A stretch of DNA of 64,000 nucleotides from the NCBI GenBank assembly GCA_021850095.1, contig JAJZRX010000001.1:62001-126000 (forward strand), in the 5' to 3' direction. The stretch comes from Deltaproteobacteria bacterium (GTDB taxonomy: Bacteria; Desulfobacterota; Desulfuromonadia; Geobacterales; Pseudopelobacteraceae). The position numbers and the translations under genes are program-made. Each line of letters opens with the position of its first letter. Position 1 is the stretch's first letter. This document shows, piece after piece, positions 51,642 through 58,704 of the stretch. The notes below the pieces were generated by a model. It searched no databases, was not told where the DNA came from, and was given only the letters and a program-made list of their open reading frames with translations.

Positions 51642-54128
51642 ATGACTGACCGGCATGAAGCAAGTCCGGCAATAAATCTCCAAACCGGAAAAAGGCTGCG
51701 GCTGATAACACTGCTGATTTTTCTCGGTCTCTCAAGCCTCTGTGTTGTTGCAATCCTGTTAATCGAAAAACACTCCGTTTCCGAAAAACGTATCCAGGCT
51801 GCCAACCTCGCCCAAACCCATCTGCGTGGACTCTCCACCAACATCAACCAGGCCCTTTCGGCAACGTATGCCCTTTCGGCGCTTGTAATACAGGGCAACG
51901 GGGAAGTGTCGGATTTTGAAAAAATCGCCGGCGAAATGCTGCCTCTCTATCCGGGAGTGGGGGCCTTGCAGCTGGCGCCATCCGGAATCATCAGGCAGAC
52001 CGTGCCGCTGGCCGGAAATGAGAAGGCGATCGGACATGATCTGTTGAAAGACCCGGCCCGCACCAAAGAGGCCTTTCTGGCCCGCACCACCGGGAAACTG
52101 ACCCTGGCCGGCCCATTCAAGCTTGTCCAGGGAGGACTTGGCGCGGTCGGTAGGTTGCCGGTTTTTCTGACGGACAGTACTGGAGAAAAACGCTTCTGGG
52201 GATTTACCGCCGTCCTGATCCGCTTCCCGGAAATTCTGGAGGCGGCCGGATTACCGGACATCGCCAAGAGTGGCTACAACTACGAACTCTGGAGGATCCA
52301 TCCCGACAGCGGGAAAAAGCAGATAATTTCATCATCGCTGGAAACACCGCTGGAAAATCCTGTCGAAATTCCGCTGGCGCTTCCCAACGGCGAATGGACC
52401 CTTGGAGTAAGGCCGGCCGCAGGATGGCACAACACTGTTTCAATCGTCGTAAGCGGCCTGATTGGACTGTTTATCAGCCTGCTGTGCGCTTTCATGCTGT
52501 ATATGCTGTTGCGGCAACCGGTCAAGCTGCGGCAGGAAGTCGCGGAGCGTACCCGCGAGCTTTTGGAGAATCAGGCCATACTGAACGAAAGTGAGCAGAA
52601 ATTTCGGCTGGCCTTTGAAAATGCCAACACCGGCATGTGCCTGGTGGATATGTCCGGCAACCTGGTGCGCGTGAACAATAAAATGGCTGAAATTTTCGGA
52701 TATGCCAAAAACGAGCTGGAGCAGATGACGGTCAACTCTCTGGCTGTGCCGGAAGATCGTGAGCTTAGTGGCAATTACATGAATAAAGCGCTTGCGTCCG
52801 AGCAAGGCGCGGCCGCATTTGAAAAACGTTATTACCACAAGGACGGACATGTGGTCTGGGGGCAGGTTGCCAGTTCGCTGGTGCGCAATGCCGCCGGTGA
52901 ACCGGACTACTTCATTTCACAGATCCAGGACATCACCATCCGCAAGCAGATGGAAGACGAGCGCATCACCATGGAGCGTCAATTGCTGCATTCTCAAAAA
53001 CTGGAAAGCCTGGGGGTGCTGGCAGGCGGCATTGCCCACGATTTCAACAACATCCTGACGTCGGTGATTGGCAATGCCGATCTGGCGCTGATGCGCATGG
53101 ACGCGCAATCACCGGCGGCGGACAACCTGCGGCGGATTGTGCAGGCCTCGGAACGGGCCACCGACCTTGCCAGACAGATGCTGGCCTACTCGGGCAGGGG
53201 CAGGTTTGTCATCGGCGCCATCGAACTCAACCAGCTGGTGGAGGAGATGGCTCACATGCTGGAAGTTTCAATTTCCAAGAAGGCCCGTCTGCAACTCGAC
53301 CTTGCCAGGCCACTGCCGCTGGTGGAGGCCGATGCCACGCAATTGAACCAGGTCATCATGAATATGGTCATCAACGCCTCCGAAGCTATCGGAGACCAGA
53401 GCGGCGTCATCATCATCACCACCGGCTGCATGGATTGCGATAGCGGCTATCTCAAGGAAGCCTGGATGAATGAACCACTACCGGGCGGCCACTATGTTTA
53501 TCTTGAAGTCTCCGACAATGGCTGCGGCATGGACCATGAAACCATGTCCAAAATTTTCGATCCGTTCTTCACCACCAAGTTTACCGGGCGGGGCCTGGGA
53601 ATGGCCGCCGTGCTGGGCATTGTTCGAGGGCACAAGGGAACCATAAAAGTCTACAGTGAACCGGGCCAGGGGACCAGCTTCAAAGTGTTCTTGCCGGCCA
53701 GCGCCAGTCAGAGTCAGCCTGGAGATTCCAATGCCGGCGACAGGCGCTTATCCGGCTGGAAGGGGAGTGGAACCGTGCTGCTGGTTGATGATGAGGAGAG
53801 TATTCTGAAAACCGGCGGCGAAATGCTGCGTGAGCTCGGCTTTGAAGTAATCACGGCCTGCGACGGGCGCGAAGCGCTGAACGTGTTTCAGGCAAACCGG
53901 CAGAAGATCAACTGCACAATCCTCGACCTGACCATGCCGGACCTGGATGGCGCACAGACCTTTCAAGAGCTGTGCCGGCTTGATCCGGAGGTGCAGGTGG
54001 TAATGTCCAGCGCCTACAATCGGCAGGAGATCGTCAAGAAATTTGCCGGAAAACGATTGGCCGGATTCATTCAAAAGCCGTACCGGCTTTCGGAACTGGC
54101 CGAAGTACTCCAGAAAATCAGCGGCTGA
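51642..54128 (+). CDS. hybrid sensor: CHASE-like domain, PAS, histidine kinase, receiver
   Basis: N-terminal extracytoplasmic domain, PAS (FRLAFENANTGMCLVDMSGNLVRVN), GIAHDFNNILTSVIGNADLA, FFTTKFTGRGLGMAAVLGIV, receiver VLLVDDEESILK. Confidence 0.92.
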   Translation: MTDRHEASPAINLQTGKRLRLITLLIFLGLSSLCVVAILLIEKHSVSEKRIQAANLAQTHLRGLSTNINQALSATYALSALVIQGNGEVSDFEKIAGEMLPLYPGVGALQLAPSGIIRQTVPLAGNEKAIGHDLLKDPARTKEAFLARTTGKLTLAGPFKLVQGGLGAVGRLPVFLTDSTGEKRFWGFTAVLIRFPEILEAAGLPDIAKSGYNYELWRIHPDSGKKQIISSSLETPLENPVEIPLALPNGEWTLGVRPAAGWHNTVSIVVSGLIGLFISLLCAFMLYMLLRQPVKLRQEVAERTRELLENQAILNESEQKFRLAFENANTGMCLVDMSGNLVRVNNKMAEIFGYAKNELEQMTVNSLAVPEDRELSGNYMNKALASEQGAAAFEKRYYHKDGHVVWGQVASSLVRNAAGEPDYFISQIQDITIRKQMEDERITMERQLLHSQKLESLGVLAGGIAHDFNNILTSVIGNADLALMRMDAQSPAADNLRRIVQASERATDLARQMLAYSGRGRFVIGAIELNQLVEEMAHMLEVSISKKARLQLDLARPLPLVEADATQLNQVIMNMVINASEAIGDQSGVIIITTGCMDCDSGYLKEAWMNEPLPGGHYVYLEVSDNGCGMDHETMSKIFDPFFTTKFTGRGLGMAAVLGIVRGHKGTIKVYSEPGQGTSFKVFLPASASQSQPGDSNAGDRRLSGWKGSGTVLLVDDEESILKTGGEMLRELGFEVITACDGREALNVFQANRQKINCTILDLTMPDLDGAQTFQELCRLDPEVQVVMSSAYNRQEIVKKFAGKRLAGFIQKPYRLSELAEVLQKISG

Positions 54129-55485
54129 TTAACAGACGAGGCCCGGCACGCAGTTCATCGACCATGTTATGGTTCTCCGAACAAATCACTCGGAACTCTT
54201 TAGAAATACGGGGATCGGACTTTGTTCGCTCCCAGAATCGGCCGGCACTTTCCAGGGCTGAGGGCCACTCGTCAGGTGCGGCGGAAACAACAGCAGGAAC
54301 CGCGAGGTGTCTTGATGAAACAGCGCCGTCTAGCGGCTTATAAAGCATCGGAAGCACATCATAGGCCGGAGCAAGCCTGTATAGCCTGCTGCCATCAAGC
54401 ATAATCAAAGAGACATTGCCAAAGTGCTGATCATTGTTGCCGATCAGGCTGCCAAAAACCGAGAGCCACTTGAGAGAGCTGGCATCCTGAGTTGACAACC
54501 TTCCATCGCTTGCCATTCTGTTTGCGGCATTAACCCAGTTGTCCTGAAAGCCGTAAAATTCATTATCAATCGCTCGTAATGAAATAATGGGCAGGCGCCC
54601 CATTAATCCGGTTCTGTCAAAACGGACCACTTCCAGAAACACTCGCCCTCCCGCTTCGATTATGGTGCTTTGGGCTGCACTGATACCGGAGCTTTTTACA
54701 ACTTCCAGGGCATGATGCTCGCAGATAAGGAGATCAGCCCATCGCCTTCCCTCAATGGTGCTGACAGGTGGAGAAAACTTAACCAGTACATTCCGAACCG
54801 CTCCCGAACGCTCGACAATGGCGGTAAATTTGGGTTGCTCTCCGCCTGCGGATGATCCTACCGGTTGGCCGTCCATGGCCTCCTGGGCAAACCTCGGATA
54901 CGTATCGGGAATTGCTTGTTCCCGAATCGGCGCGGGTAGCTCACGAGCCATGCGAAAGTATCGCTCAATGGATTCCCGGCCAATGACAAGATCCCCCATG
55001 GTGTCCTCGCCTCGACGTGCCAATGCGGACAACACGTGATCTTCGTTCCAGTCAAGACTGCGAGGAGGAAGGCCTAATTCCATGTGTAATTGACGGACGA
55101 AAGCGCGGCCGACAAAGCCTTCCGGGTGGAGGTCGGCAATGAACCATGGGAGGCTGCGGAATAGTTGCTCACGAGCATTCAGGGGGGACCAGAGAAAATG
55201 GTCCTGCGCAACAGCGTATAATGTTCCGATCTGGTGGGCATTGCCTTCGGCGTCAATTTTAAAAACGGGGAATTCTCCGCCAAGACCCCGCACGTCACGT
55301 ATTCTCGTGTAGCGCCGTGCCCGTGCGCTCCCGATAGCGATTACCCTGTCGCCCAGTTGCGCAAGCAAGCGGGAAACCGTCGGTTGACTGAGGCGAAAGC
55401 GTCGCTGGATTTCCGGTGAGGAATATATTCCTGTGCTTAAGAATGACAGTAACCGGTCTGGATTGTCGAGGGTGCTGACCCGCAT
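54118..55485 (-). CDS. HipA-like kinase with fused N-terminal HTH
   Basis: HTH RRFRLSQPTVSRLLAQLGDRV; SSAGGEQPKFTAIV; FGSLIGNNDQHFGNVSLI; LAPAYDVLPM. Confidence 0.88.
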   Translation of the reverse strand: MRVSTLDNPDRLLSFLSTGIYSSPEIQRRFRLSQPTVSRLLAQLGDRVIAIGSARARRYTRIRDVRGLGGEFPVFKIDAEGNAHQIGTLYAVAQDHFLWSPLNAREQLFRSLPWFIADLHPEGFVGRAFVRQLHMELGLPPRSLDWNEDHVLSALARRGEDTMGDLVIGRESIERYFRMARELPAPIREQAIPDTYPRFAQEAMDGQPVGSSAGGEQPKFTAIVERSGAVRNVLVKFSPPVSTIEGRRWADLLICEHHALEVVKSSGISAAQSTIIEAGGRVFLEVVRFDRTGLMGRLPIISLRAIDNEFYGFQDNWVNAANRMASDGRLSTQDASSLKWLSVFGSLIGNNDQHFGNVSLIMLDGSRLYRLAPAYDVLPMLYKPLDGAVSSRHLAVPAVVSAAPDEWPSALESAGRFWERTKSDPRISKEFRVICSENHNMVDELRAGPRLLISR

Positions 55486-56230: not shown

Positions 56231-57031
56231 TCAAACCCTCCTATCCGGTTTGATTAACGGTTCACGTGGTGTGCGGCTGGCCGCACCACCCCGATGTTGT
56301 GCATTGAATGTAGCAACAATAGGATTGTGGTCACTCATGTCACTCCATCCTTCGGTATGCACCTCGCACGATTCGAGGTAGCGGAACCATGAAACCGGAA
56401 TAAATATTCCGTCACAGTGGTACGGCGCATTCATATTTCCTGTCCAACGGAGCGTTTGCGGTAAGTTTTGGTTTGGATTGATGGCTTGCCAAGCGTTGAT
56501 GAGGCCAAAATCGCTTTTGAGGCGGCGAAGAATGGAGAGTTCAGTTTTCGTGTTGTTTAATTCTTCGGAGGGGTGTCGAACAGCTGTAGTAATATTGAAG
56601 TCACCTCCGATCAGGAGGTCGCAGTCTTGAGTGTCTTTCTGTATAAAATCAAGAATATCATTTACTTTCTTTTCATAAGGACCGGGCGAAGGCGCATGAA
56701 CACTGAAAACCATTACAGGTCTCGCCACTCCTCCGATGGAGAAGTCTGGAATCAAGCCTCCAGCTACCCACCCTTCAAACGCCGTAGGCACTGAAACATC
56801 TTCGATTTTATGTTGCGGTGCAAGTATTGCGCTTCCCCACTTCGAGGGTAATGACTGCCAAACTATGGAGCCTTCAAATTTCTTATTCTCACTCTCCGGG
56901 ATATACACTGACGGGTGAAATGATTCCTGAACAAGAACCAAATCCGGTGCAAATTCACTGATGATCCTTTGCCAGTGGTTTCCTGTTTTGGTATGTCCGC
57001 CGTAGTGAAGGTTGAAGGTTACGATTTTCAT
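56231..57031 (-). CDS. endonuclease/exonuclease/phosphatase family protein (cassette)
   Basis: IVTFNLHYGGHTKTGNHWQRIISEFAPDLVLVQE; LIGGDFN; SDHNPIVATF. Confidence 0.88.
   Translation of the reverse strand: MKIVTFNLHYGGHTKTGNHWQRIISEFAPDLVLVQESFHPSVYIPESENKKFEGSIVWQSLPSKWGSAILAPQHKIEDVSVPTAFEGWVAGGLIPDFSIGGVARPVMVFSVHAPSPGPYEKKVNDILDFIQKDTQDCDLLIGGDFNITTAVRHPSEELNNTKTELSILRRLKSDFGLINAWQAINPNQNLPQTLRWTGNMNAPYHCDGIFIPVSWFRYLESCEVHTEGWSDMSDHNPIVATFNAQHRGGAASRTPREPLIKPDRRV
56252..56302 (-). other. attC-like site C (degenerate)
   Basis: minus strand GCACAAC-ATCGGGGTGGTGCGGCCAGCCGCACACCACGTGAACC-GTTAATC; internal imperfect stem. Confidence 0.55.
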
Positions 57032-57042
57032 TTATTTCCTTT

Positions 57043-57101
57043 CTGCAACGGGCCGGGAGAACACCGGCGGTTTTTAGGCCGGTGCTTCTTCCTGGTTGAA
57101 C
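57043..57101 (-). other. attC-like site B
   Basis: minus strand GTTCAAC-CAGGAAGAAGCACCGG...CCGGTGTTCTCCCGGCCC-GTTGCAG; extrahelical base. Confidence 0.7.
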
Positions 57102-57775
57102 AGATGTTCCGCAGAATTTGTTTTCGTATCCAACTCTTTGTATCGTTCGATTAGGCTTTCCAATGTCAACTGTACTTGTGAAAGCAAATTTTTTGTAATC
57201 ACTGAATCAAATAAGAGGTAATTGTAGAAAAAGGTAATCCCAATTTCTTGTTTTCCCCAAGCCGTTATTTTACGCCTGCTCTTTTCGTTTAGCATATCCA
57301 AACGACCATTTACATGTGCTATTGCATGGCGAAGTTCTGCAAGCATTTTAATGCACTGCCAAGCTTCATTGTCGCTACACAACTCAAATCTGAGGATGTT
57401 TTTGTAGTACTTACTTGCCCGCTCAAGAAAGTCGCCCCTGAGGTCATTAATCCCTATTTCTTGACCTTGTGATTTCTGTAGTAGAGAAGCGATTTCGGTT
57501 ACACCCGTTTCAAACGCTGCATATAAAGCCACAATATATGGCCCCCAGAAAACCCGAGGCAAAAGAAATTCAACTTTGTGCTCACATTCCTGTCGAGCGA
57601 AATCCCATTCAGGATCTTCGGGGGTTAAATTTTCTCTTTTTAGGTATTCCAGCAGAGTTGCTTCTTCTGCCTCTTTTAGGTGTAAAAGCTGATTATTTAT
57701 GAGTTCGTAATGATCCTTAAGAGCATAAAGCTCTAAGGAAACATCAAGTAATCGGAAATCAACATTTATCTTCAT
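57074..57775 (-). CDS. HEPN-like protein (cassette)
   Basis: all-helical; MLAELRHAIAHVNGRLDML carries R-x4-H; stop codon lies within attC B. Confidence 0.5.
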   Translation of the reverse strand: MKINVDFRLLDVSLELYALKDHYELINNQLLHLKEAEEATLLEYLKRENLTPEDPEWDFARQECEHKVEFLLPRVFWGPYIVALYAAFETGVTEIASLLQKSQGQEIGINDLRGDFLERASKYYKNILRFELCSDNEAWQCIKMLAELRHAIAHVNGRLDMLNEKSRRKITAWGKQEIGITFFYNYLLFDSVITKNLLSQVQLTLESLIERYKELDTKTNSAEHLFNQEEAPA

Positions 57776-57809
57776 GGGTTCTTTTCTTTCATGGCACCCT
57801 TAACTGTAA

Positions 57810-58046
57810 TCATGCACCGGGCTTATCACTTCTGAAGCCTTCCACTACCCAAGCGATTCCTCTAACAATCCAGAAAGGGAAGAAAAAACTGGTGGGTAAT
57901 CCAGCAAATAGGATTAACCAGCCCTGCAATTCAATTGAGTTGGCGTTCTTGAAAAACTCTGTCACGACTAAAGCAAAGATGATCCACCCCAACAAGCCGA
58001 GGAGTCCCAGCAGGATTGACAAGCGGCGTATTCCTTCTGTTCTCAT
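57810..58046 (-). CDS. small two-TM membrane protein (same cassette)
   Basis: MRTEGIRRLSILLGLLGLLGWIIFALVVTEFF...LILFAGLPTSFFFPFWIVRGIAWV; AAGGAG RBS. Confidence 0.65.
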   Translation of the reverse strand: MRTEGIRRLSILLGLLGLLGWIIFALVVTEFFKNANSIELQGWLILFAGLPTSFFFPFWIVRGIAWVVEGFRSDKPGA

Positions 58047-58061
58047 TTCATTCTCCTTCTT

Positions 58062-58122
58062 GTTCAACGGGTCGGGAGATCACCGGGCGGCATTTCGGCC
58101 AGGTGCATCTCCCTGGTTAGGC
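58062..58122 (-). other. attC-like site A
   Basis: minus strand GCCTAAC-CAGGGAGATGCACC...GGTGATCTCCCGACCC-GTTGAAC; both cores fit RYYYAAC/GTTRRRY; stem GGGAGAT(G)CACC/GGTGATCTCCC. Confidence 0.88.
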
Positions 58123-58132
58123 TTTCCTTGAA

Positions 58133-58594
58133 CTATCTTCGAGCTTTACCGCTAATCCGGTCGATTTCTATTTTGAAGACCTTTGTAATCTTGTCTTTTT
58201 GCTCAATGTAGCGTTTGCTCTCTTCGATAAAGTCAGAACAGTATTTCTCCAACAGCCACATCAAAGCGTCATGTCTCACGGCGCCATGCACCTCTGAAGC
58301 TCGGCCAAACACCACGACACTTTCGTATTCTGTGCCAAATTTATCTGGCAGAATCTTGGTCTTGCCAACCACGCAAAAAGATACCTTTGCGTTGTGCTCG
58401 ATATTTTCGAGTTTATGGCCGCTGATGGCACAGTGGAAATAGATGGAATCTCCCTTGTAAACGTAACTCAACGGCACGCCATAGGGTTGTCCGTCGTTGC
58501 CGACCGTCGATAAAACTCCATATTCGGCGGAATCGAGGATGTTTATTGATTCTTGTCGGGTTATTTCTCGGTCACTTCTCCGAACTTCCTTCAT
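58133..58594 (-). CDS. pyridoxamine 5'-phosphate oxidase-like/NimA-type protein (cassette)
   Basis: YGVLSTVGNDGQPYGVPLSYVYKGDSIYFHCAISGHKLENIEHNAKVSFCVVG; start chosen just inside R' of site D. Confidence 0.85.
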   Translation of the reverse strand: MKEVRRSDREITRQESINILDSAEYGVLSTVGNDGQPYGVPLSYVYKGDSIYFHCAISGHKLENIEHNAKVSFCVVGKTKILPDKFGTEYESVVVFGRASEVHGAVRHDALMWLLEKYCSDFIEESKRYIEQKDKITKVFKIEIDRISGKARR

Positions 58595-58609
58595 TCGTTC
58601 TTCCTTTAT

Positions 58610-58654
58610 GCCTAACTCCTTATTCACCGGTTCACGCGCGTGCGCGCGTGAACC
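58610..58654 (-). other. attC half-site D with 26-nt perfect palindrome
   Basis: minus strand GGTTCACGCGCGCACGCGCGTGAACCGGTGAATAAGGA-GTTAGGC; clear R', no clear R''. Confidence 0.6.
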
Positions 58655-58704
58655 GCTCATCCCCCCAAACGGAACATTTATACCGTTACCTAAAAATCAA
58701 ATCC

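Follow-up and report, generated by a model that had tools for sequence, protein, structure and literature searches.

The window, a stretch of 64,000 nucleotides, contains an integron gene cassette that encodes a 233-amino-acid protein predicted to be a ribonuclease of the HEPN superfamily. With a probability of about 0.55, we consider that the cassette serves to supply one HEPN endoribonuclease that acts on phage infection, and that a small gene for a two-transmembrane (two-TM) protein, which precedes the HEPN gene within the same cassette, is a passenger. The invariance of the putative active-site residues and the gene neighborhoods of homologous proteins support this reading.

Cassette structure and genomic context

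The assignment as an integron gene cassette is based on flanking attC sites, complementary R' and R'' sites, and a foldable core. The site upstream of the two genes, attC B, matches the R''/R' consensus RYYYAAC...GTTRRRY without any mismatch, and attC A, whose outer R' is degenerate (GTTGCAG), was recovered in the attC scan with two mismatches (Table 1). The two sites resemble each other in sequence when aligned, are spaced 1 kb apart, and both fold better than shuffled sequences (z = -2.94 for attC B and -2.34 for attC A). The R' at the start of the cassette (GTTGAAC) is the exact complement of the R'' at its end (GTTCAAC), and the adjoining cassette with a gene for a PNPOx-like flavoprotein shows an equally exact pair (GTTAGGC / GCCTAAC); such complementarity is expected where a cassette was once circular. 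Furthermore, attC A contains the stop codon of the HEPN gene, an arrangement typical for cassette genes. Both genes of the cassette are encoded on the minus strand with the two-TM gene first, and the gap of 34 nt between them is too short to accommodate an attC. An earlier note on this DNA, made from the sequence alone, had described two genes between attC A and attC B without an attC between them, and both reading frames and their arrangement were found as described. No promoter above chance level was detected in the cassette, which therefore may be silent.

Table 1. Features of the HEPN cassette and of the adjoining part of the array (positions in the window).
Feature	Position	Strand	Basis or remarks
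Endonuclease/exonuclease/phosphatase (EEP)-like protein, next array gene	56231..57031	-	PF03372, E 2.1e-4, below curated cutoff
Candidate degenerate attC past EEP-like gene	56252..56302	-	2 mismatches; weak fold, z -1.75
attC A	57043..57101	-	GTTCAAC...GTTGCAG on minus strand
Complete gene cassette	57049..58067	-	R' cleavage point of attC B to R' cleavage point of attC A, about 1019 bp
HEPN-superfamily protein, 233 aa, predicted metal-independent RNase	57074..57775	-	
R149-H-A-I-A-H154 (R-x4-H motif, in ELRHAIAH)	57314..57331	-	R and H invariant in 19/19
D111, the other acidic residue conserved throughout the family	57443..57445	-	Invariant in 19/19
E89, acidic, in preceding long helix	57509..57511	-	Invariant in 19/19
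Two-TM protein, 78 aa, first gene of cassette	57810..58046	-	ORF, hydropathy
Shine-Dalgarno sequence AAGGAG of two-TM gene	58053..58058	-	Sequence
attC B	58062..58122	-	GCCTAAC...GTTGAAC on minus strand
PNPOx-like (pyridoxamine 5'-phosphate oxidase-like) flavoprotein, neighboring cassette	58133..58594	-	PF12900, E 6.5e-21

The G + C content of the array genes (0.40–0.47) is lower than that of the window (0.57) and of the flanking core genes (0.60), and in none of eight congeneric genomes were array genes found behind the conserved DUF362 gene. No integrase gene is present among the ORFs around the array, and the two full intI genes of the same genome are located elsewhere, on contigs C80 (L027) and C74 (L028), in whose first 20 kb a simple scan detected no clear attC. 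The array thus is of the CALIN type, and a complete integron was ruled out by the lack of an adjoining intI. The neighboring cassettes are metabolic and not defense-related, with genes for the PNPOx-like protein and a flavin reductase in the array; integron cassettes carry non-defense genes too. Just past the DUF362 gene (window positions 58604–58664), a perfect GC-rich 12-bp hairpin with an adjoining GTTAGGC was observed (z = -5.96), and a closely similar palindrome occupies the same place in a relative (G019, L072); this hairpin is perhaps an attachment site or a terminator where the array entered. A gene for a HipA-like kinase with a winged-helix-like N-terminus (window positions 54118–55485) adjoins the cassette array as well.

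Sequence and predicted structure of the HEPN protein

HEPN proteins are defined by an R-x4-6-H motif, a polar residue (N, D, or H) after the arginine, and an acidic residue in helix 2 (PMC3710099). An alignment of the cassette protein with homologs from genome contigs, the phylum, plasmids, one phage, and viral contigs revealed that R149, H154, E89, and D111 do not vary across 19 homologs, whose identity extends down to 16–20%. In the alignments, the members displayed have H or N directly after the motif arginine, and the invariant positions among the distant homologs alone include E89, D111, R149, N150, and H154. When the window protein itself was used as tblastn query, no match on plasmids or in phages was obtained; the homologs on these elements were reached by using divergent homologs as queries.

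Two HEPN family models matched the protein. For PF18735 (HEPN_RiboL-PSP), the window protein obtained an E-value of 4e-4 (20.8 bits) and the best homolog 5.7e-6 (26.8 bits), with the gathering cutoff of 28.4 bits unreached by the window protein and by the members tested; for the PADLOC model RTasHEPN (PDLC03820), the respective E-values were 2.7e-5 and 1.3e-10. Each of the two models was matched by six of nine family members. A profile-profile comparison by hhalign of the family with 13 PF18735 proteins above the curated cutoff yielded a probability of 86.6% and aligned both the helix motif with the glutamate (Y-A-x-[FW]-E) and the R-x4-H motif (R[NH]xIAH), whereas the probability was 0.4% with the reversed profile and did not exceed 0.3% in any of 50 column shuffles. 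In distinction from HEPN_RiboL-PSP, the members of the cassette protein's family share a conserved D111 and W139. Sequence searches of the PDB returned nothing relevant, and the sole match to Rfam was a tRNA in L027.

Membership of the 233-amino-acid protein in the HEPN superfamily is thus supported at the sequence level, as the earlier note had tentatively proposed from the R-x4-H motif: the arginine and histidine are retained in all 19 homologs, the acidic residue in the earlier helix is invariant as well, and two HEPN families were matched significantly. In the preferred reading, the protein is a stand-alone HEPN-type endoribonuclease from a widespread family with a length of about 200–235 amino acids.

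An AlphaFold model calculated from seven sequences was almost all helical (pLDDT 86.8, pTM 0.81); an earlier model from three sequences (pLDDT 44) had been discarded. In the model, R149 and H154 close the helix formed by residues 136–155, and E89 is located within helix 55–102. Since these positions match the HEPN description, the model has the expected layout, and the predicted fold is consistent with, but does not prove, a HEPN domain. A Foldseek search of the model against the PDB recovered no solved HEPN structure at E < 0.2, and the best viral match in BFVD was an unnamed protein (E 3.5e-3, TM 0.54). Structure prediction, which the earlier note had recommended, hence gave a divided answer: the all-helical model shows the anticipated arrangement, whereas Foldseek provided no match to a solved HEPN structure.

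Distribution and gene neighborhoods of the family

Homologs with 60–70% identity occur in other taxa and are certainly or probably situated in cassette arrays. A 70% identical homolog, filed as a Stahlbacteria MAG (L010), carries an attC immediately behind the stop codon of its HEPN gene, followed by a Shedu SduA gene (E 1.5e-128) and a further attC-like site. Two further homologs are 60% identical. One of them, in a Desulfocapsa MAG (L011), has attC-like flanks and is followed by a cassette that shows R''/R' complementarity, so that its location in an array is probable; the other is encoded on an IMG/VR contig (L041) and starts 6 nt past an attC-like R'. The sites flanking the HEPN gene of L041 and the one immediately behind that of L011 were recognized by their R-site sequences only, since they fold no better than shuffled sequences. 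A single close copy of the HEPN gene was found among 76 genomes of the taxonomic family.

Among the more distant members, those of L050 and L052 are additional genes of prophages, and one is a gene of a Bacillus phage. Plasmid-borne members adjoin Abi-family, Abi_C, or restriction genes, and a chromosomal member adjoins a gene for an OLD-type ATPase-TOPRIM protein (L024). Another chromosomal member (G041; L025, 5042–8707) is located directly upstream of a 962-amino-acid TIR/SEFIR-NACHT protein, and the two possibly form a two-gene defense operon. With its sporadic spread and its prophage, plasmid, and defense neighborhoods, the family shows the pattern typical of mobile conflict genes.

Two other arrangements were observed among the homologs. 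On plasmid p3 of Caballeronia (L034:3916–5492), an Abi_C protein and a HEPN member are encoded approximately 11 nt apart beside an integrase. On contig C274 of genome G246 (L016:487–1832), an RHH-like antitoxin gene precedes a single open frame for a fusion of a PIN_3 toxin domain with a HEPN member of this family (375 amino acids), which recalls the PIN-HEPN layout found in eukaryotic Swt1.

Proposed function

A defense role of the HEPN cassette is plausible from the prophage, Abi, restriction-modification, OLD, TIR-NACHT, and Shedu neighbors of its relatives; HEPN-type RNA-cutting proteins are often employed against viruses. We infer that the protein would dimerize, as other HEPN RNases do, and that two R149-x4-H154 motifs, with E89, would create an active site that cleaves RNA (tRNA or mRNA, of the host or the phage) without need of a metal. 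In a healthy cell the protein would be inert or weakly expressed, but phage infection would activate it, and translation and phage growth would stop through abortive infection or dormancy; abortive infection is the probable mode of action. The proposed RNase step draws on the invariant active-site residues and on the work summarized in PMC3710099, and the proposed trigger and link to phages draw on the genomic context of the relatives.

The same active-site features would be expected of a stress or dormancy RNase that is not directed at phages but slows translation under stress or stabilizes the array in the manner of cassette toxins. Such a stress role has already been proposed for HEPN proteins of integron cassettes by Anantharaman et al. 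(PMC3710099), and would agree with the metabolic nature of the adjoining cassettes. However, several relatives reside in prophages or adjoin OLD, TIR-NACHT, Abi, and restriction genes, which points to conflict with phages; a general stress function appears unlikely, if by no means far-fetched, and is the foremost alternative.

The small two-TM protein

The first gene of the cassette encodes a product with two hydrophobic segments (residues about 9–31 and 43–61; peak mean hydropathy 2.65 and 1.76), in agreement with the two-TM protein of ~78 amino acids reported before. Comparison of this protein with Pfam, PADLOC, NCBIfam, and PHROGs gave no family match better than chance, and no convincing homolog was found on plasmids, in 297 genomes of the phylum, or in viral contigs. 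The gene is absent beside the HEPN copies of L011 and L041, where the HEPN gene directly follows the presumed attC; the L010 locus is cut off on the side where it would lie. Moreover, the two genes differ in GC3, with 0.53 for the two-TM gene and 0.37 for the HEPN gene (Fisher p 0.017). Because two of the closest HEPN relatives lack an adjoining two-TM gene and this gene has no clear homolog, its reading as half of a two-gene module, as had been suggested in the earlier note, is weak and not supported by these comparisons. Most likely the gene is a passenger, which perhaps arrived by the fusion of two cassettes with loss of the attC between them.

An alternative is a toxin-antitoxin or effector-regulator pair, in which the two-TM protein would keep the HEPN protein inactive at the membrane or sense infection there. 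It would account for the arrangement of both genes in one cassette and on one strand, separated by a short gap and with the two-TM gene upstream, and proteins that combine a HEPN domain with TM segments have been described (PMC3710099). In one homologous locus (L023), a different membrane-protein gene precedes the HEPN gene at a distance of about 22 nt; this gene and the upstream, co-directional position of the two-TM gene leave some room for a membrane partner. Nevertheless, HEPN genes without the two-TM gene in L011 and L041, the lack of a convincing homolog, and the deviating GC3 make a functional pair rather improbable. More doubtful still is a membrane-gated split effector, in which the two-TM protein would sense phage entry or membrane damage and release or anchor the RNase; if true, such a device would be a compact two-component immunity system that travels as one integron cassette.

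Comparison with known systems

Under the preferred reading of a single HEPN effector with a passenger gene, several known systems offer themselves for comparison. RTasHEPN, the reverse-transcriptase-associated HEPN protein of DRT defense systems, is the best single-model match (obtained by one member) and covers the same motif region, but no reverse transcriptase gene is present near the window copy. An integron cassette HEPN protein with an R-x4-6-H motif (PDB 3jrt) was listed by Anantharaman et al. (2013; PMC3710099). As the family profile did not recover 3jrt among all PDB chains at E-values up to 10, the window protein apparently belongs to a different HEPN family. Studies of V. cholerae, V. 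parahaemolyticus, and mobile integrons (Darracq 2025; Kieffer 2025; Getz 2025; reviewed in PMC12409362) demonstrated that many integron cassettes protect against phages when expressed. These are likewise small single-gene systems in attC arrays, and a Shedu cassette lies beside the L010 homolog; in contrast, a defense activity is here proposed from gene context, and the present array has no adjacent integrase. The AbiF/AbiD proteins are HEPN RNases with an antitoxin RNA, and PbAbiF needs both R and H of its R-x4-H motif (PMC12373285). They resemble the cassette protein in being single HEPN proteins of the abortive infection type, but no repeat array was seen in the 34 nt upstream of the HEPN gene or in the 6 nt from the presumed attC to the start codon in L041, and these stretches are too short for an ncRNA. 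A type III-like antitoxin RNA as in AbiF was thus rejected, since a repeat array would not fit. A HEPN-MNT toxin-antitoxin system was also rejected, as no MNT gene is present and the neighboring gene encodes a two-TM protein without a family match.

Inactive HEPN families lose R or H, and the retention of both residues in all 19 homologs makes it improbable that the protein is HEPN-like but catalytically inactive and binds RNA or nucleotides only, although some HEPN families are indeed binding domains (PMC3710099) and the fold was not confirmed by Foldseek. Even though the motif is short, the PF18735 score is under the cutoff, and the PDB holds no fold match, a non-HEPN helical bundle with LRHAIAH is extremely unlikely, as a chance motif is contradicted by the invariance of motif and acidic residue in 19 divergent homologs and by a profile match far above the controls.

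Implications

HEPN proteins in integron cassettes (2013) and integrons as stores of phage defense (2025) have already been described. The present analysis adds a HEPN family of predicted function whose invariant residues (E89, D111, R149, and H154) are defined and whose members, distributed over several phyla, turn up repeatedly in cassette arrays, prophages, and plasmids and in a phage. It also cautions that two genes within one cassette need not form a functional pair. The HEPN gene itself is small, can be cloned directly, and is a candidate for phage-protection assays.
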